From Alteromonas abrolhosensis (lineage in GTDB: Bacteria; Pseudomonadota; Gammaproteobacteria; Enterobacterales; Alteromonadaceae), in contig NZ_MEJH01000011.1 in NCBI RefSeq assembly GCF_001953635.1, positions 62,001 through 126,000 of the forward strand: a stretch of 64,000 nt of DNA, written 5' to 3'. A program made the position numbers and the translations under genes. The notes beneath the pieces were generated by a model. That model had not been told where the DNA came from. It saw only the letters and a list, made by a program, of their open reading frames with translations, and did not search any database. This document shows, one piece after another, positions 49,046 to 57,604 of the stretch (position 1 is the first letter of the stretch; every line of letters starts with the position of its first letter).

Positions 49046-50299
49046 ATGAGAACAGGACTGTTTAGAAAGGAAGTCATTGATGAGCAATCAAATGCAGTTG
49101 AAGGACGTTTTTTGATGACACCGAAGCCTGTTTATTCTGCCATTGCTGGATTGCTTGTTGTTTGGATTGTGGCGCTGATAATTTATTTAAATACCGAGAG
49201 CTATTCACGCAAGACGTCAGTAAGCGGATGGCTAGAACCAAGCCATGGCGTGTTTAAGCTTTATGCGGATGCAAGACGTGGAAAAGTGCTGGAGGTGTTA
49301 GTCAGCGAAGGGCAGTTAGTTAATAAGGGAACACCGTTAATAAAGATTAACTACAGCAGCGATGATGCATTAGGTAACAGAGTTAGTACGCAACTGCTTA
49401 TGGAACTTGAAGCGAAGCAAAGTCGAACGCATCAAAGTATTCAGCGCCTTCGCGCGTTACATCATGCACAGCAACAACGCTTAGAAGAGCAGCTAGTCCA
49501 AGCCAAGCAAACATTATCAGCTTTAGACGCGATCGTTAAACTGTCTCAAACTCAGTGGGCATTGGCTTTTAAGCAATGGGAAAAAGCACAAGCCTTATTA
49601 AGCCAAGGGCACATAAGCCAAGCAGACTTTGAAAACCGTACACTCCAGCGATTGACCGCTGAGCAACAACTCACGTTAGCCCAAAAAGATCAAAATGACG
49701 AACGGGCAAAGATAACAGCACTTAATCATGAGCTTGTCACCTTGCCTAAGCAGCAGGCCAACGAAATGGCGAACGTGGAGAACACGTATAGCGACCTTAC
49801 TCAACAAATCGTAAGCCATAAAAGTAACGCAGAGGAAACAATTTATGCGCCTCATAGTGGCGTGATATCGGGTCTTCATGTAAAGACGGGATATACCATT
49901 GATAGTTCTCGCCCGCTTCTTACTTTGCTTCCTAAAAACGCCGACATTCAAGCGCGCATCGCCGTTCCCGTGCGTTCTTCAGGATTTTTACGCAAGGGAC
50001 AGGCCTTACATATTCGATATGACGCTTTTCCCTATCAAAAGTTTGGTGTGCAGTCTGGCGAGATAGTAAAAATTTCTCCTTCGCTTGTGCTACCCGGCGA
50101 GCTTACGGATGTGCCCATTTCAATAAGCGAACCTGCCTATCTTGTTACTGCAACGCTCACCACCAATGAAATTATGGCATATGGAAATAGTATTTCATTG
50201 AAAGCTGGAATGACATTTTCTGCAGACGTGGATTTAAGCCAACGTACGTTGATGGAGTGGCTAATGGAGCCACTGTATAGCATAACTGGGAAGCTGTGA
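49046..50299 (+). CDS. HlyD-family membrane-fusion adaptor of a peptide exporter
   Basis: A 417-residue periplasmic adaptor. It has one N-terminal membrane helix (AIAGLLVVWIVALIIYL, ~residues 30-50), a lipoyl-like half (VLEVLVSEGQLVNKGTPLI), a long coiled-coil hairpin (~115-250) and the second lipoyl half with GVISGLHVKTGYTIDSSRPL, then a beta-barrel. It bridges an ABC exporter to an outer-membrane channel such as TolC, which is not in the window. ATG at 49046 lies 6 nt after AAGGA; an ATG two codons earlier overlaps that site. The stop overlaps the region where the exporter gene begins. Confidence 0.9.
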   Translation: MRTGLFRKEVIDEQSNAVEGRFLMTPKPVYSAIAGLLVVWIVALIIYLNTESYSRKTSVSGWLEPSHGVFKLYADARRGKVLEVLVSEGQLVNKGTPLIKINYSSDDALGNRVSTQLLMELEAKQSRTHQSIQRLRALHHAQQQRLEEQLVQAKQTLSALDAIVKLSQTQWALAFKQWEKAQALLSQGHISQADFENRTLQRLTAEQQLTLAQKDQNDERAKITALNHELVTLPKQQANEMANVENTYSDLTQQIVSHKSNAEETIYAPHSGVISGLHVKTGYTIDSSRPLLTLLPKNADIQARIAVPVRSSGFLRKGQALHIRYDAFPYQKFGVQSGEIVKISPSLVLPGELTDVPISISEPAYLVTATLTTNEIMAYGNSISLKAGMTFSADVDLSQRTLMEWLMEPLYSITGKL

Positions 50300-50301
50300 T
50301 C

Positions 50302-52569
50302 ATGATGAGTATTACACACCCACTTCCAACGCAAAGCCTTTATACAAAGAAGCGCGTACCCGTTGTACTTCAAAGCGAAGCAGCTGAATGTGGCCTCGCG
50401 TGTATGACCATGATTGCGCAGTACTATTCTGATAAACGGGACCTTAACGCTCTACGCCAGACCATGTCAGTCTCGCTACGAGGCACCACGTTGAAAGATG
50501 TAATGCGTATTGCCAGTGATTTAGGCTTTCAAACCCGCGCCATCAAGATAGAAATGGAGCATCTAGCACAACTATCCTGCCCTGCAATTCTGCATTGGAA
50601 TATGAATCACTTCGTTGTGTTAACCAAGGTGAAGGGCAAAACTCTCACTATTCACGACCCCGCGCTTGGAGAAAGAAAGCTTACCTTTGCTGAGGCGTCA
50701 AAGTGCATCACGGGTATTGCGCTTGAAGTTACACCCAGTGATACCTTCAGCCCAAAGAAATCCTCGCCACGCTTTGGCCTTAGTCAATTTTTCACTCGCA
50801 CCACAGGATTTAAACGTAATCTACTGACCCTTTTCTCATTATCAATTGTTTTACAGCTGTTTGCCCTCGCTTCGCCGTATTACATGCAAACAGTGGTAGA
50901 CGACGTATTAATCTACAGCAACGATGCTCTGCTTAAAGCGCTAGCCATAGGTTTTGCCCTGCTATTGGTAATAGAGACTTTTACCAGTGGGATAAGAAAG
51001 TTCGTTGTTTTATCTGTATCGTCCCGCCTTCAGCTTCAAATGTCAGCATCGGTATTTAAGCACTTACTTTCGCTCCCTCTGGATTATTTTGATAAACGGC
51101 ATATTGGCGATGTGGTGTCCCGTTTTGGTTCGCTGGCGAGTATTCGAGAGTTTTTAACTACCGGTGTGGTGACTGCGTTACTAGACGGGCTGATGGCTAT
51201 CATCACCCTTGCTGTAATGATTCTATATTCACCTAAGCTTACCCTTGTTGTAGTGGCAATCATGCTCGCTTACCTTGCCATTCGTTTTGGGCTGCTGCCG
51301 GTTACTAAACGACTAACAACTGAACGAATCTCACTTGCCGCGTCTGAACAAAGCCATTTCATGGAAAGTGTGCGCGCTATCCTACCCATTCGCGTATATG
51401 GCCAGGAAGTACAGCGTCACGGTCAATGGCAAAACAAGCTGGTCGCCACACTAAATAAAGATATCACTCTTGGCAAAATTAACATTGGCAGTGCGCTGGC
51501 CAATCAGTTTTTATTTGGCGCCGAAAACTTGGTGGTGGTTTACATAGGTGCAAGCCTGGTTATGGAAGGTGCGCTTTCCATCGGTATGTTACTCGCATTT
51601 ATGGCGTACAAAACGCGCTTTGTTAATGCGTTAGACGGCGTGGTGAATAAAGTGATAGAGCTCAAAATGCTGGGCGTTCACTTCAATCGTTTGAGCGATA
51701 TTTTGCTTACCCCAGCGCAGCAACAGCCCCGGTTGGGAAATAGCAGTGAGGGTTCTTTTGGTGCACAAGGTACTCTCTTCGCTAAATTAGACTTACCTAA
51801 CTCGTTCACAACCAACTCACTTTCACCCAAGGTTTCAGCGCCTGATAACGCAAGTACGGTCTCATGCACCGGTACCCAAGAAGACGCTATTGCAATTAAA
51901 GCTACAGCACTTAGCTATCGCTACAGTGAAACGAATGCGTGGGTGTTTAAGAACCTAACCCTCAGCGTGAATAACGGTGAGATCGTAGCGATTATAGGTG
52001 ACAGCGGTTGTGGAAAAAGCACTTTACTAAAATGCCTGATGGGACTTTATCCCATTTCAGAGGGTGTCATTGAGCATCCTGGTATTAAAAAGCCGGTCAT
52101 CGCATCAGTGCTTCAGGAGGATGCCTGTTTAAGCGGCACTATCGCCCAAAATATCTGCTGTTTCGAAGAAGCACCGAACCTTAAGAAAATGGTTTACGTC
52201 GCTCAACTTGCCTGTATTCATCAAGACATCATGCACATGCCCATGCAATACCACTCCTTGGTCGGTGATATGGGTAGCAGCTTAAGTGGCGGGCAAAAAC
52301 AGCGTCTGCTGCTTGCAAGAGCGCTTTACCAAGAACCAGACATTTTATTTCTAGACGAAGCAAGTAGCCATCTAGATATGGAGAACGAGGCTCAGATAAA
52401 TCACCACCTTAAGTCTCTTAATATGACCCGCATTATTGTGGCACATCGACCCCAATCTATTGCCATGGCAGACAAGGTTTATCGTCTGGCAAACGGCGCA
52501 TTACATCTATGCCCTCCCACTGAAATAACAGGAAGCGCAACATCAGGTAAACACGGAGAAACACTATGA
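50302..52569 (+). CDS. C39-peptidase ABC exporter (double-glycine leader processing)
   Basis: A 755-residue bacteriocin-type exporter. The N-terminal C39 cysteine peptidase (~1-135) has catalytic Cys30 in SEAAECGLACM, His in WNMNHFVVL and Asp in IHDPALG. The membrane domain spans ~165-450. The nucleotide-binding domain (~530-740) has Walker A GDSGCGKST, signature SLSGGQKQR and Walker B ILFLDEASSHLD. A low-complexity linker of ~60 residues joins the last two. It should cut after GG in the neighbouring precursor and pump the core out with the HlyD adaptor. ATG at 50302 is 8 nt after GGGAAG. Confidence 0.95.
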   Translation: MMSITHPLPTQSLYTKKRVPVVLQSEAAECGLACMTMIAQYYSDKRDLNALRQTMSVSLRGTTLKDVMRIASDLGFQTRAIKIEMEHLAQLSCPAILHWNMNHFVVLTKVKGKTLTIHDPALGERKLTFAEASKCITGIALEVTPSDTFSPKKSSPRFGLSQFFTRTTGFKRNLLTLFSLSIVLQLFALASPYYMQTVVDDVLIYSNDALLKALAIGFALLLVIETFTSGIRKFVVLSVSSRLQLQMSASVFKHLLSLPLDYFDKRHIGDVVSRFGSLASIREFLTTGVVTALLDGLMAIITLAVMILYSPKLTLVVVAIMLAYLAIRFGLLPVTKRLTTERISLAASEQSHFMESVRAILPIRVYGQEVQRHGQWQNKLVATLNKDITLGKINIGSALANQFLFGAENLVVVYIGASLVMEGALSIGMLLAFMAYKTRFVNALDGVVNKVIELKMLGVHFNRLSDILLTPAQQQPRLGNSSEGSFGAQGTLFAKLDLPNSFTTNSLSPKVSAPDNASTVSCTGTQEDAIAIKATALSYRYSETNAWVFKNLTLSVNNGEIVAIIGDSGCGKSTLLKCLMGLYPISEGVIEHPGIKKPVIASVLQEDACLSGTIAQNICCFEEAPNLKKMVYVAQLACIHQDIMHMPMQYHSLVGDMGSSLSGGQKQRLLLARALYQEPDILFLDEASSHLDMENEAQINHHLKSLNMTRIIVAHRPQSIAMADKVYRLANGALHLCPPTEITGSATSGKHGETL

Positions 52570-52877
52570 AAACACATGAAATAAGAGAACCCGCAGTATT
52601 GATGACAGCAGCTGAACGCATGCAAATAGATGCAAATGGCATTACCGCTCGTGACAGCGTTATCCCCATTGACTGTTTATCAAAACGCGAACTACAGGTA
52701 GCACACAAAATAATGGAAGGACGCTCGAATAAGGTTATTGCTTCAGAGCTGTTCATCAGTGAAAGAACTGTCAAATTTCACTGCGCCAATATTTATAAAA
52801 AGCTCAACATTAGTAACCGTTCAGTGCTTATCGCCTGCTGTTTCAGAACCCTTTACCAAGAAGTGGCTTCGCTTTAA
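52566..52877 (+). CDS. Small LuxR-type HTH regulator
   Basis: A 103-residue protein with a C-terminal LuxR/GerE HTH (LSKRELQVAHKIMEGRSNKVIASELFISERTVKFHCANIYKKL) and no receiver or autoinducer domain. Its ATG overlaps the exporter stop (ATGA), so its production is coupled to that of the exporter. It ends 47 bp before the precursor gene and probably controls the precursor or the whole cluster. The N-terminal 35 residues carry no recognised domain. Confidence 0.88.
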   Translation: MKTHEIREPAVLMTAAERMQIDANGITARDSVIPIDCLSKRELQVAHKIMEGRSNKVIASELFISERTVKFHCANIYKKLNISNRSVLIACCFRTLYQEVASL

Positions 52878-52924
52878 GCGCATCCACTTCATTACTCAAC
52901 ACGCCACTACAAGGAGCGTACATT

Positions 52925-53131
52925 ATGAAAAACCATCCATTAACTCAAAACCAACCGGCAAATACTCAGCTTACTACCGTTGCTGAATCTCAGCTATTTG
53001 AAGTATCAGGTGGCCTGCGGGCTCGCCTAAGTGGGGGTGTGCCGGTAGTCGGCCCAACTCCTAAAGAGCCGGTTTACATAACCATGGCTATTGGTGAAGG
53101 CGGCGGCAAACTACCAGATATTTTATCGTAA
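52925..53131 (+). CDS. Double-glycine leader precursor peptide
   Basis: A 68-residue peptide. The leader (1-30) ends ESQLFEVSGG, with Leu at -7, Val at -4 and Gly-Gly at -2/-1, the pattern cut by C39 peptidases. The 38-residue core starts LRARLSGG and contains PTPKEP, then YITMAIGEGGG, and ends KLPDILS. It has no Cys, so it is not a disulfide bacteriocin or lanthipeptide. Thr53 and Glu58 are separated by four residues (T-M-A-I-G-E), the inner spacing of the TTxxxxEE ring motif of plesiocin-type graspetides. AAGGAG lies 8 nt upstream. A hairpin and the ATP-grasp gene follow. The product is not known. Confidence 0.88.
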   Translation: MKNHPLTQNQPANTQLTTVAESQLFEVSGGLRARLSGGVPVVGPTPKEPVYITMAIGEGGGKLPDILS

Positions 53132-53154
53132 CTTTCACTTACCCGAACAAAGTC

Positions 53155-53190
53155 AACACAGGGATAGGGCCTACGCAATATCCCTGTGTT
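53155..53190 (+). repeat. 12-bp hairpin between precursor and ATP-grasp genes
   Basis: AACACAGGGATA (53155-53166) pairs perfectly with TATCCCTGTGTT (53179-53190) around a 12-nt loop, 24 bp after the precursor stop. No T run follows, so it may be a partial terminator or an RNA-stability element giving more precursor than ligase. Confidence 0.75.
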
Positions 53191-53245
53191 GCTTCAAAAA
53201 CTATCAACTTCTATCAATACGCAAAAATGCTAGCAAGGAACGCAA

Positions 53246-54244
53246 ATGCACGTAGCTCTACTAGGCAGTGAACAAGACCCACAAATTCAACATATAGCCA
53301 TGGCACTTCGCCAAAGTAACACGCCCTTTTACTTCGCCAATACACAGCATTTTGGCTCTACCTGGACCATCAGCTATGACCCTGACTTTGATGACGGGCT
53401 AATTCATTTCAATTCGCCTTCACTTTGCGACCAATCTAGAGTTACGTTCTCGAATACTAAAGCTGCTTATTGGCACGAGTACTTGCCAGGATTGCCACCT
53501 AAGTCCCCAAGTGAAAACGCTAGAAATGATAGCAGCACAGACGCTCAAGCACAGCGTGATAAATCTGATGATAGAGACTCTAGTTTGTTAGAAAACGCGG
53601 GGTGGGTTGAGCAAGAGCGAGCAAGTACGCTACTTTGCTGGTTCAGCTATAGCGACATTAAATGGGTGAACTCTATCGACGCTGTTCGAAGCCACCAGTG
53701 TAAACCTTATCAATCGCGCATTGCTGGCAAATTAGGAGCACATATTCCCTACACCTTTGTAGGCAATGCATCCGAAGTTGCCTCTCAGTTTTGTAGCAAT
53801 ATGCGAGACGTTATTTACAAGCCCGTACGCGGCGGTCGTACCGCACAGTATGTGAATAAACAACCAAACATGCGCCCACTACTCAATACACTTTTAGGTG
53901 AACGCCCTGTTACCTTTCAAAAATATATTGCCGGCGTAAATGTACGAAGCTATGTGCTGGGCAATGACGTGCTCAGCGTACAAATTGACTCAAGTGAATT
54001 AGATTACAGGAATGACGACAATGCGAGCGTATCGGTGACCATAGTCCCTGGCGAAGTCAAGCAGTTAGCTATCAGAATTTGCCAAGCTTTAGGCATGCAT
54101 TGGTGCGCAATCGACTGGCGTAAAAGTGCGAAGGGAAAGTACTTTTTTCTAGAGGCAAACCCCAGCCCATATTTTTTGAAAATAGAAAACGATACTGGCC
54201 TGAATATCACGGAAAAGCTGGTAGCGCTGTTGGTGAAGACTTGA
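53246..54244 (+). CDS. ATP-grasp peptide-modifying ligase (MvdD/RimK-like)
   Basis: A 332-residue ATP-grasp enzyme. The N-terminal pre-ATP-grasp part (1-~150) contains a charged low-complexity insert (~95-120). The ATP-grasp fold has DVIYKPVRGGRTAQYV (nucleotide loop), FQKYIAGVNVRSYVLG, and the Mg-binding FFLEANPSPYFLKIENDTG, closely similar to graspetide maturases of the MvdC/MvdD type. These make ester or amide rings between Ser/Thr/Lys and Glu/Asp side chains. AAGGA lies 6 nt before the ATG. Beside a Cys-free double-glycine precursor and C39 exporter, macrocyclisation of the core is the best inferred role. Confidence 0.87.
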   Translation: MHVALLGSEQDPQIQHIAMALRQSNTPFYFANTQHFGSTWTISYDPDFDDGLIHFNSPSLCDQSRVTFSNTKAAYWHEYLPGLPPKSPSENARNDSSTDAQAQRDKSDDRDSSLLENAGWVEQERASTLLCWFSYSDIKWVNSIDAVRSHQCKPYQSRIAGKLGAHIPYTFVGNASEVASQFCSNMRDVIYKPVRGGRTAQYVNKQPNMRPLLNTLLGERPVTFQKYIAGVNVRSYVLGNDVLSVQIDSSELDYRNDDNASVSVTIVPGEVKQLAIRICQALGMHWCAIDWRKSAKGKYFFLEANPSPYFLKIENDTGLNITEKLVALLVKT

Positions 54245-54460: not shown

Positions 54461-54790
54461 ATGCCACGCGTTGCTTTAGAAACTGAATCAACACTTACAG
54501 AACGTTTTCAAACCACAGTGCCAAGTTCTGTCCGTAAGGCATTACGTTTAGGTAAAAAAGACAAAATTAAATATGCCATTCAATCTGACGGTAGCGTTGT
54601 TATATCCAGATTAGAAGCGCAAGAGAGCGATCCTATTATTGGCGAATTTCTATCATTTATTGCACATGACATTCAGGCCCATCCAGAAAACATTGAGCCC
54701 TTATCAGAAAGTATGCGTGTAAGCGTTAACGCACTGGTAGATGGTGTCGAAATTGATCTCGATGCTCCTTTGCTGGATGAGGACGAATAA
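54461..54790 (+). CDS. prlF: PrlF-type antitoxin
   Basis: A 109-residue antitoxin of the PrlF/SohA family. The N-terminal AbrB-like swapped-hairpin DNA-binding domain is ESTLTERFQTTVPSSVRKALRLGKKDKIKYAI; the acidic C-terminal tail (VDGVEIDLDAPLLDEDE) should bind the toxin. It is followed 2 bp later by the YhaV toxin. The palindrome and promoter upstream suggest autoregulation. It lies directly after the peptide cluster, so this part of the chromosome may be an accessory insertion. Confidence 0.9.
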   Translation: MPRVALETESTLTERFQTTVPSSVRKALRLGKKDKIKYAIQSDGSVVISRLEAQESDPIIGEFLSFIAHDIQAHPENIEPLSESMRVSVNALVDGVEIDLDAPLLDEDE

Positions 54791-54792
54791 GT

Positions 54793-55266
54793 TTGCAGAA
54801 AACGATACCAGCTGTTGTAAACGGATGGACACTTTACGCTCACCCATTATTTATAGAGCAATATCTCAATCTCAAATCGCAGGTTGAAGCTTTACGGGAA
54901 AAAGATCCAGAGAATTACACTAAGAAAAATGCAGCTAAGCGTTTAGCTGCTATTCAAAGACTCACCTTTGAACTAATTCCGCATGATCCTACTCACGCTG
55001 ACTTTCGTCAAGGAAACACGTTAGGTGAAGACAATAAGCATTGGTTCCGTGCAAAGTTTTTCCAGCAGTATCGCCTTTTTTTCCGCTACCATCTTGAGTC
55101 TAAGGTTATCGTATATGCATGGGTAAATGATGAGAAAAACAAACGTGCATATGGAAGTAAGACGGACGCTTACAGAATTTTTGAGAAAATGGTGAAATCT
55201 GGTCATCCACCAAAAGAATGGGACGATCTTTTGAAAGCAGCCCAAAATAAATTACTCCCTCTGTAA
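54793..55266 (+). CDS. yhaV: YhaV-type ribonuclease toxin
   Basis: A 157-residue toxin of the YhaV family (RelE-like fold), a ribosome-dependent or free endoribonuclease in E. coli. Seen are VNGWTLYAHPLF, REKDPENYTKKNAAKRLAAI, FRQGNTLGEDNKHWFRAKFFQQYRLFFRYH, the WVNDEKNKRAYGSKTDAYRIF segment and HPPKEW. The start is TTG at 54793, with GAGGA about 10 nt upstream; low-efficiency starts are usual for toxins. Full length, so the pair is probably active. Confidence 0.9.
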   Translation: MQKTIPAVVNGWTLYAHPLFIEQYLNLKSQVEALREKDPENYTKKNAAKRLAAIQRLTFELIPHDPTHADFRQGNTLGEDNKHWFRAKFFQQYRLFFRYHLESKVIVYAWVNDEKNKRAYGSKTDAYRIFEKMVKSGHPPKEWDDLLKAAQNKLLPL

Positions 55267-55416: not shown

Positions 55417-56745
55417 TTACAAGATAAAACGCGACAGATCTTCGTTATCTACCAAGGTTTCTAGGTGGCTGTTAACGTAATCTGCATCAATCACGAACGA
55501 CTCCCCGCTTTTCTCGGAGGCGTCGAACGAGATGTCTTCCATAAGACGCTCAAGCACGGTGTGCAGACGGCGGGCACCAATGTTTTCAGTACGCTCATTC
55601 ACCTGCCATGCCGCTTCAGCAATGCGCTGAATACCAGAATCATCGAACGTAATATCCACGCCTTCTGTCTTCATTAGTGCGATGTACTGGTGCGTTAACG
55701 ACGCATTTGGCTCGGTAAGAATACGTTTAAAGTCACCTACTTTAAGGGCAGATAGCTCAACGCGAATTGGAAGACGACCCTGAAGTTCAGGAATAAGATC
55801 CGACGGCTTGCTCATTTGGAATGCGCCCGAGGCGATAAACAAGATATGGTCGGTTTTAACCATACCGTGTTTTGTCGATACCGTTGAACCTTCCACCAGT
55901 GGAAGCAGGTCACGTTGAACACCTTCGCGAGATACATCTGCCGACGAGTTGCCTTCTCGCTTACAAATTTTGTCAATTTCGTCGATAAACACAATACCGT
56001 GCTGTTCTACCGACTCAATGGCTTTCTCCTTCAAATCTTCTTGATTCACAAGGCGTGCCGCCTCTTCTTCAATAAGTAGTTTGAACGCCTCTTTAATTTT
56101 CAGCTTCTTCTTTTTCTTCTGCGAACCCGACAAGTTCTGGAACATGCCTTGAAGTTGGTTGGTCATTTCTTCCATACCTGGAGGCGCCATAATTTCTACG
56201 CCCACCTGCGGAAGTGCTACATCAATTTCAATCTCTTTGTCGTCGAGGTCGCCTTGACGAAGCTTTTTGCGAAATGCTTGGCGCGTGCCGCGATCTTCAA
56301 CGTTTTCTTTATTGCCCCACGCATCTTCTGGTGGAGGAAGTAAAACGTCTAAGATGCGCTCTTCCGCTGCTTCTTCTGCGCGGAATTTCACTTTTTTCAT
56401 TTCGTTTTCTTTCGTCATCTTCACTGCAATATCAGCAAGATCACGAATGATAGTTTCAACTTCTTTACCTACATAGCCCACTTCGGTGAACTTAGTCGCT
56501 TCAACTTTAATGAACGGCGCGTTAGCAAGTTTTGCTAAACGGCGAGCAATTTCAGTTTTACCCACACCCGTAGGACCAATCATCAAAATATTTTTTGGCG
56601 TAACTTCTTGGCGCAGCTCAGGCTCAAGCTGCATACGACGCCAGCGATTTCGAAGTGCAATAGATACAGCGCGCTTGGCATCTTGTTGACCGATAATATG
56701 ACGGTCTAACTCGTGAACAATTTCTCTTGGTGTCATTTCAGACAT
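55417..56745 (-). CDS. hslU: HslU, ATPase subunit of the HslUV protease
   Basis: A 442-residue AAA+ unfoldase that feeds substrates to HslV. It has the N-terminal [16 protein letters not shown], Walker [17 protein letters not shown] (~residue 57), an I domain (~110-240), Walker [11 protein letters not shown] (~250), sensor and arginine-finger region GRLPIRVEL and a C terminus DLSRFIL that docks into HslV. Length matches E. coli HslU (443). It lies 82 bp after hslV in one operon. Confidence 0.97.
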
Positions 56746-56827
56746 GAATAAACCCTTTTCTAACAGGACTTGCTGTACTCGAATTCAGATGAGCAACAGC
56801 AAGCCGATAACAGCATTCAGCTATTAC

Positions 56828-57352
56828 TTAGTAATCTAGTACATCAACCGTTTGGCTATGGTTAGTGAATACGCAAATATCACCCGCTATGGTCAACGCT
56901 TTTTCAGCAATTTCTTTTGCGCTTAGCTCTGTATTTTCAAGTAGTGCCGTAGCTGCAGCTTGTGCGTAGTTACCACCAGAACCAATCGCGATAAGATCTT
57001 GTTCTGGCTGCACCACATCACCGTTACCGGTAATAATAAACGATGCGGTTTCGTCGGCTACGGCAAGCAATGCCTCTAGTTTGCGAAGCGCCCTGTCAGT
57101 TCGCCAGTCTTTAGCAAGCTCTACCGCCGCTTTGGTCAAATGGCCTTGGTGGGCTTCAAGCTTTGCTTCAAAGCGCTCAAATAGCGTAAACGCGTCGGCC
57201 GTGCCACCAGCAAAGCCCGCTAAAATTTTATCGTGGTATAAACGGCGCACTTTGCGCGCATTACCTTTCATTACGGTATTGCCCAGTGATACCTGTCCGT
57301 CACCGGCCATTACCACTTGATTCCCACGTCGTACAGATACAATCGTTGTCAC
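56828..57352 (-). CDS. hslV: HslV, peptidase subunit of the HslUV protease
   Basis: A 174-residue proteasome-beta-like threonine peptidase. The chosen GTG start (57352) gives TTIVSVRRG right after Met, so the nucleophile Thr becomes N-terminal after Met removal, as in E. coli HslV. GGGGAA precedes the GTG. A longer ATG frame reaching 57427 would add 25 residues that block the nucleophile. [24 protein letters not shown] and [15 protein letters not shown] are conserved. It leads the hslVU operon. Confidence 0.96.
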
Positions 57353-57604
57353 GTTAATTCCCCGTTTAGCTGGGCGCTGCTGCGTTTTTAGCTTAGCAAA
57401 GGCAGCAGCGTTCAAATTCAATAACAAATAAGTGGGGGAAGGCTTTTTAATTTCAAGGGTAAGACAAAAGAATGTGCGCTCAGAGCTGCCTACTATATGG
57501 GCTTAGCGCATACGGTGCTTATTGAATACGCCATTTATCGGGTGCATACTCTCGCCAATGAAGCCCATGGTTATTTGATGGCATGCTTATTTAATGGATT
57601 ATCA

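Follow-up and report, generated by a model that had tools for sequence, protein, structure and literature searches.

An Alteromonas gene cluster predicted to make a one-ring graspetide of plesiocin descent

Among the graspetides, peptides cross-linked by ATP-grasp ligases, the closest described relative of the system reported here is plesiocin (PsnA2/PsnB), which the accessible part of PMC12291112 describes as four repeats, each with two ester cross-links adjacent to one another. The available sections of Makarova (2022, PMC8939145) state that all graspetides characterised by 2022 were protease inhibitors, that P-h-h leader motifs probably activate the ligase and are present in about half of the precursors, and that a single ester is possible in clusters 281 and 1028. 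Leader motifs of this type are thus common in graspetides and not required. Here we analyze a 64,000-nucleotide stretch of Alteromonas abrolhosensis (contig NZ_MEJH01000011.1, positions 62,001 to 126,000; hereafter, the window), in which five genes probably direct the synthesis and secretion of a graspetide with one Thr53-Glu58 macrolactone ring, derived from a plesiocin-type ancestor; the proposed chemistry and function are read from sequence comparisons. The graspetide class itself is known; what is new is the predicted peptide, a reduced and conserved graspetide of the plesiocin type. In the open-licence literature of PubMed Central (PMC), no paper was found on graspetides together with Alteromonas, on ATP-grasp ribosomally synthesized and post-translationally modified peptides (RiPPs) of Alteromonas or on the TTxxxxEE pattern; 12 papers there name Alteromonas along with RiPP-like biosynthetic gene clusters, and a supplement may already list the family.

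The ligase was placed by profile and by fold. A profile (A1) built from 23 relatives and run against the PDB retrieved PsnB (7drm) first, at 1.8e-43, followed by MdnC, MdnB, AMdnB, 9bou and CdnC (2e-32 to 2.9e-27), with RimK at 1.1e-11. A Foldseek search with the AlphaFold model (mean predicted local distance difference test score, pLDDT, 90) gave graspetide ligases at ranks 1-31, PruB (9bou, which we take to be such a ligase) first and PsnB second; ArgX and RimK begin at rank 32, among the best 50 rows. By these comparisons the ligase is a member of the graspetide macrocyclase branch, PsnB-like by profile. A preliminary description, made from the letters of the window, had called the cluster graspetide-type and had asked whether the ligase is kin to amino-acid or glutathione ligases; by profile and fold comparison, rather than by a tree of the published groups, its place is among the macrocyclases, away from the glutamate and glutathione ligases. 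Its suggestion that MvdC and MvdD are the closest kin did not survive: PsnB of plesiocin is nearer by sequence profile, and FLEANPSP, on which the suggestion rested, is presumably the general ATP-grasp metal site and not an MvdC/MvdD signature. Membership in these families was rejected on the scores for TIGR04185 and TIGR04184 (57.8 of 425 and 56.1 of 475 bits). The window ligase has its enzyme class and fold in common with the microviridin and marinostatin enzymes (MdnB, MdnC, MvdC, MvdD), but it is more distant in sequence, and the window has neither the PFFARFL leader nor the cage core pattern. The best NCBIfam model, ahead of RimK, MvdC and MvdD, is TIGR04187 (ATP-grasp ribosomal peptide maturase; 1.9e-28), the GRASP_SAV_5884 family, which we take to be an actinobacterial type, yet the match is far below its cut-off. 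D290, E303 and N305, presumably the metal site, and the D253-x-R255 pair, to which we also assume a role, are nearly constant across the relatives.

An ATP-grasp enzyme may also add an amino acid, in the manner of RimK or LysX, or act on a substrate other than the precursor. The Pfam match of the window ligase is RimK-like and the RimK and ArgX folds do appear in the Foldseek results, but in the PDB profile search the weakest graspetide ligase stands about 15 orders of magnitude ahead of RimK, the C-terminal residue of the precursor is not conserved, and ligase and T/E core vanish together, as described below. We regard such an activity as very unlikely, and a RimK-like amino-acid ligase was rejected as the principal interpretation on the PDB profile and fold searches.

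The precursor encoded next to the ligase has no match in Pfam and NCBIfam searches. In a genus set of 59 genomes (Alteromonas for all 11 named relatives), 53 have a ligase match at E 1e-3 and 6 have none; of the matching genomes, 43 have strong matches (1.1e-36 or better) and the other 10 have nothing beyond weak ones (2.9e-7 or worse). All 43 strong genomes were taken, with one locus each. T-x-A-[IL]-G-E-x-G-G lies near the C-terminus of 42 of the 43 genus precursors, generally with P-x-Y or PPxY ahead of it and LPD behind. A motif so regularly next to the ligase puts the precursor far beyond chance and, together with the profile match to PsnB, leads us to accept the graspetide class; precursor homologues beside ATP-grasp genes, which the preliminary description proposed to look for, thus accompany the same ligase in dozens of genomes. 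The conserved Ser/Thr and acid are Thr53 and Glu58, spaced i,i+5, and because they are the constant pair, a single Thr-Glu macrolactone (-18 Da) is predicted.

This core, earlier called unrecognisable, reads as a reduced plesiocin repeat. The window sequence VYITMAIGEGGG corresponds to plesiocin YTTLAIGEE with the outer ring pair exchanged (T to I, E to G), and VYITMAIGEG is the counterpart of GGPYTTLAIGEE at the C-terminus of the PDB chain PsnA2(14-38). The two systems have a PsnB-like ligase and the core frame YxT[LM]AIGE in common, but the window has one copy of the core, with the outer Thr and Glu replaced, and hence a single pair (I-T....E-G) instead of the nested pair of the bicyclic plesiocin type (TT....EE). 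The spacing of Thr53 and Glu58 is the one that we take the inner Thr-Glu ring of plesiocin to have (i,i+5). Across Alteromonas cores the outer Thr has become Ile, Phe or Tyr, and the outer Glu Gly, Asp, Asn, His or Thr. Outside the genus, all 29 strong genomes of the family (E 1e-73 or better) were taken together with 11 weaker places; the 11 distant-ligase stretches (L131-L141) are left out of every count. A precursor matched by our regular expression was found in 26 of the 29 strong loci, the misses being L126, L130 and L109, whose contig stops 0.6 kb beyond the ligase. Fourteen of the 26 have T or S ahead of the Thr and E behind the Glu (e.g. TTMAIGEEGG), all with a leader containing HPF, a motif of the P-h-h type. 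Alteromonadaceae precursors of this kind with [TS]T[ML]AIGEEGG (L113, L114, L117-L121, L125) and a locus from another family, L172 (G709), which has four TT[ML]A[IL]GEEGG repeats, are homologous to the window in ligase and core but retain two features that the window lacks, the T/S-T....E-E pattern and a leader with HPF. L172 matched the PsnA2(14-38) chain, and it is this match, with the repeat architecture of plesiocin, that leads us to read the Alteromonas core as a plesiocin repeat. When each of 69 loci is represented by a single precursor (the last listed, or the second for L108), the ring-flanking positions are T/S and E in 15 (the 14 and the paralogue L051), neither in 53, and T and D in one (L040).

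Additional rings, in which Asp65 or Glu48 would be linked with Ser68, Lys47, Lys62 or Tyr51 besides the Thr53-Glu58 ester, seem decidedly unlikely. An acid does follow the ring Glu in 41 of the 42 motif-bearing genus precursors, the window core offers Lys47, Lys62 and Ser68, and several links are typical of characterised graspetide synthetases according to the accessible part of PMC13097080. On the other hand, L053 is without the acid, no partner is constant, and the last residue may be A, F, K, L, M, Q, R, S, W or Y. A conserved second ring was rejected for this lack of constant partner residues.

Selection on the precursor was estimated from 11 close relatives (55 pairs) as the ratio of nonsynonymous to synonymous change (pN/pS). 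The ratio is 0.032 for the core, 0.37 for the leader and 0.35 for the linker; it is 0.156 for the ligase, 0.161 for the exporter, 0.186 for HlyD and 0.105 for LuxR, and, among housekeeping genes, 0.023 for HslU and 0.029 for 3-hydroxy-3-methylglutaryl-coenzyme A (HMG-CoA) reductase. Leader and linker therefore evolve in close relatives about 10 times faster than the core, whose rate, a rough estimate because each pair offers only some 16 synonymous sites, is near that of the housekeeping genes. Since pS is similar in core and leader (0.52 and 0.57), the low ratio of the core reflects constraint rather than a recent origin. Near constancy of the core through much of the genus indicates a fixed job for the peptide rather than an arms race. 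With constraint as tight as that on housekeeping enzymes, a single unchanging target of the product is the most likely case, and one worth finding in so common a marine genus.

Ligase and core are also lost together. Only two of 73 ligases, L061 and L130, have lost all of R255, E303, N305 and D253 (L061 has also lost D290), and both are among the four of the 73 loci that lack a motif-bearing precursor; L061 retains a double-glycine peptide from which the core is absent. A DNA pattern for the core is found in exactly 42 of the 59 genus genomes, those with an intact ligase (47 matches against 1 for the reversed control, with 2 outside clusters, in G014 and G019). It is absent in all 17 genomes with no ligase or a decayed one (16 ligase-less genomes and G006), the pattern being an exact one that an altered core could escape. 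On the best tree of HslU, built from 57 genus rows and 6 outgroups (without L043 and L074, for want of HslU), presence and loss of ligase and core are explained by 5 changes.

In 13 of the 16 ligase-less genus genomes the C39-type ATP-binding cassette (ABC) exporter and the LuxR gene are kept at the site (HlyD in 11; the stretch ended early in L163 and L167), and no precursor was noticed from exporter to HslU in these 13. Such exporter/LuxR-only sites near HslUV (L156-L163, L166-L170) fall into one clade in 12 of 13 cases. G001 keeps LuxR alone; G038 has LuxR, a peptide with a decayed core (...PIYGTFENEGKDIS) and, on the far side of HMG-CoA reductase, a different exporter; G041 has no cluster genes between HMG-CoA reductase and HslU. 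The exporter in ligase-less genomes must have other cargo or be in decay. Conceivably, then, the genes make up a conventional bacteriocin cluster, with a minor ligase step and an exporter for unmodified double-glycine peptides, a possibility that the retained exporters favor, as does the exporter-only genome G010, which encodes elsewhere two glycine-rich, unmodified-looking double-glycine peptides (L175, L176), presumably of the class II microcin-like type. Where the ligase is intact, however, core pN/pS is 0.03, unlike that of the leader, and bacteriocins facing immunity usually diversify; we therefore give this possibility very little credence. The double-glycine family TIGR01847 was discarded as a cargo finder, as it matched in 1 of 6 genomes and misses the known precursor. 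In L161 (G033), HslU is 100% identical to that of the window, but HlyD is 49% and C39-ABC 60%; the exporter there seems to have been exchanged.

In the one-ring graspetide pathway that we envisage, the ligase would phosphorylate the Glu58 side chain, and attack by the Thr53 hydroxyl would close the six-residue macrolactone TMAIGE. The exporter would cut after Gly30 and, with HlyD and a presumed outer-membrane channel encoded elsewhere, would secrete the remaining peptide, some 38 residues long. Control of the operon probably falls to the LuxR protein. The window leader is without HPF, a motif of the type expected to engage the ligase. Outside the genus, 23 of the 26 precursor-bearing loci have HPF; within it, the motif occurs in the paralogous cluster L051 and in two of the 42 main loci (L053, L057). 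On the best ligase tree this distribution takes 5 changes. Its loss suggests that the Alteromonas ligase may read the core or the double-glycine helix instead. Ligase columns specific to HPF (e.g. 120, 121, 124, 309) are confounded by kinship and were not used as proof. By analogy with plesiocin and microviridins, our first guess for the product is a secreted serine-protease inhibitor and our second a signal peptide. More speculatively, and on present evidence rather unlikely, an HPF-independent, core-reading ligase, a single ring and a peptide that purifying selection preserves at a stable place in the chromosome would together mark an endogenous signal or regulator, perhaps acting via LuxR, and not a weapon or defence inhibitor. 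The loci form a natural series, from the four-repeat TT....EE of L172 through single bicyclic-type cores to the one-ring core and the joint loss of ligase and core, along which direct comparison can test how many rings form, how the leader is used and what graspetides are for.

Several observations weigh against a one-ring graspetide of plesiocin descent. The ligase is under the curated cut-off of every NCBIfam model (99.6 bits versus 350 for TIGR04187). The regular expression for the precursor was composed after the sequences were viewed, which in part builds in the constant T and E of the 69 loci. The sequence link from precursor to PsnA2, made through L172, is weak by itself (E 0.1), and the window precursor gave no direct match in the PDB up to E 10; we accept the link because the ligases match as well. 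Covariation of the outer pair is suggestive only, as there are just 3 independent pairs (2 changing together, 0 opposed, 1 without difference), which is not significant. HPF is present in only 2 of 42 main-cluster precursors of the genus, so that the ligase would have to grip the others in another way. The core of L107 is TIFEFGE, with i+6 spacing and a D253V ligase; in L126 the ligase residues are intact, but the HPF-bearing open reading frame (ORF) is without the core motif. The 13 ligase-less genomes with C39-ABC and LuxR imply that the exporter may have other cargo.

Table 1. Features of the cluster, with positions counted from the first letter of the window
Feature	Position	Strand	Basis
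HlyD-type membrane fusion protein	49046..50299	+	Pfam HlyD_3 PF13437 3.9e-17; ORF open from 49040
C39 peptidase/ABC exporter	50296 (or 50302)..52569	+	Peptidase_C39 PF03412 5.8e-35, ABC_membrane PF00664, ABC_tran PF00005
Stand-alone LuxR-type helix-turn-helix protein, no receiver domain matched	52566..52877	+	GerE 7.2e-22
Precursor peptide, 68 residues	52925..53131	+	ORF; homologues beside ligases
Precursor leader, residues 1-30, ends EVSGG, no HPF motif	52925..53014	+	pN/pS 0.37
Conserved core KEPVYITMAIGEGGGKLPDILS, residues 47-68	53063..53128	+	pN/pS 0.032 over 55 pairs
Predicted ring TMAIGE, side-chain ester Thr53-Glu58	53081..53098	+	Conserved T/E i,i+5; chemistry inferred
RNA hairpin between precursor and ligase genes	53150..53194	+	Predicted fold and compensatory changes
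ATP-grasp graspetide ligase	53246..54244	+	Pfam RimK; PDB profile match 7drm; fold search

The layout of the locus (Table 1) agrees with the preliminary description: all five same-strand genes were recovered in the order claimed, with matching Pfam domains, the precursor has its double-glycine leader, and its core is free of Cys. The Cys/His/Asp set claimed for the exporter is Cys30, His103 and Asp119, which are invariant in 61 of 61 exporters, as are Gln24 and the Walker Lys and Glu (650 residues aligned, numbering from 50302). With leader and C39 residues both present, export is of the double-glycine/C39 type, cleavage itself being predicted. A LuxR-type protein inside the cluster, thought to be an unfamiliar order, is standard in the lineage (42 of 43 genus loci; partial in L049). 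The start of HlyD at 49046 is preferred over 49040, since alignments with many homologues begin at residue 3 of the longer protein. The 3' end of HlyD overlaps the 5' end of the exporter gene, and the 3' end of the latter overlaps the LuxR-type gene. The window genome has a single ligase match at E 1e-3, one occurrence of the core DNA pattern and two further, weaker C39 matches.

The hairpin shows compensatory change in 8 of 15 predicted pairs over 11 sequences, and Rfam gave nothing at gathering scores for it; local hairpins are also predicted in the remaining intergenic stretches, there with no shuffled sequences for comparison. It may set the precursor:ligase ratio, with precursor in excess over enzyme. 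Predictions of sigma-70 promoters and terminators were fewer than in shuffled sequence and carry no information.

The position of the cluster is largely constant in the genus. HlyD and C39-ABC are present in 39 of the 43 genus loci; L074 is at a contig end, and L049, L050 and L056 have ligase, precursor and LuxR, yet no HlyD/C39 exporter in the fetched stretch. HslU lies inside the fetched stretch in 41 of the 43 and HMG-CoA reductase in 32. In L043, HslU is about 7 kb from the ligase and in L074 on another contig; overall, the ligase is near HslUV in 42 of 43 ligase-bearing genus genomes. Protein distances correlate with those of HslUV (Spearman 0.69 for the ligase, 0.73 for the exporter, 0.76 for HlyD and 0.37 for LuxR; n 38-41), and for none of the four did any of 999 permutations reach the observed value, as vertical descent would give. 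Plasmid carriage was rejected, since among 72,556 plasmid records none has a core match and 4 have distant ligases (<31% identity). In the window, HslUV protease genes (55417-57427) adjoin the cluster, which is probably chance despite the inhibition of proteases by graspetides, as the peptide is exported. Directly downstream of the cluster is a PrlF/YhaV-type toxin-antitoxin pair (54461-55266; 1.5e-35 and 8.2e-61), found at the same site in only some relatives (L034, L063, L064, with a YhaV remnant in L065).

In the family, 80 of 395 genomes match A1 at 1e-15; in the order, 15 of 394 match at 1e-30, of which 4 are outside the family, G709 and G511 strongly. L051 (G037) is a second, distant cluster of the same genome, whose two downstream precursors have HPF and TTMA[IL]GEEGG. 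Multi-precursor clusters (L108, L112, L116, L122) encode peptides like MHPFS...GG...IT/VT[MQ]AIPEDG, with up to six small precursor ORFs matched by the regular expression per ligase.
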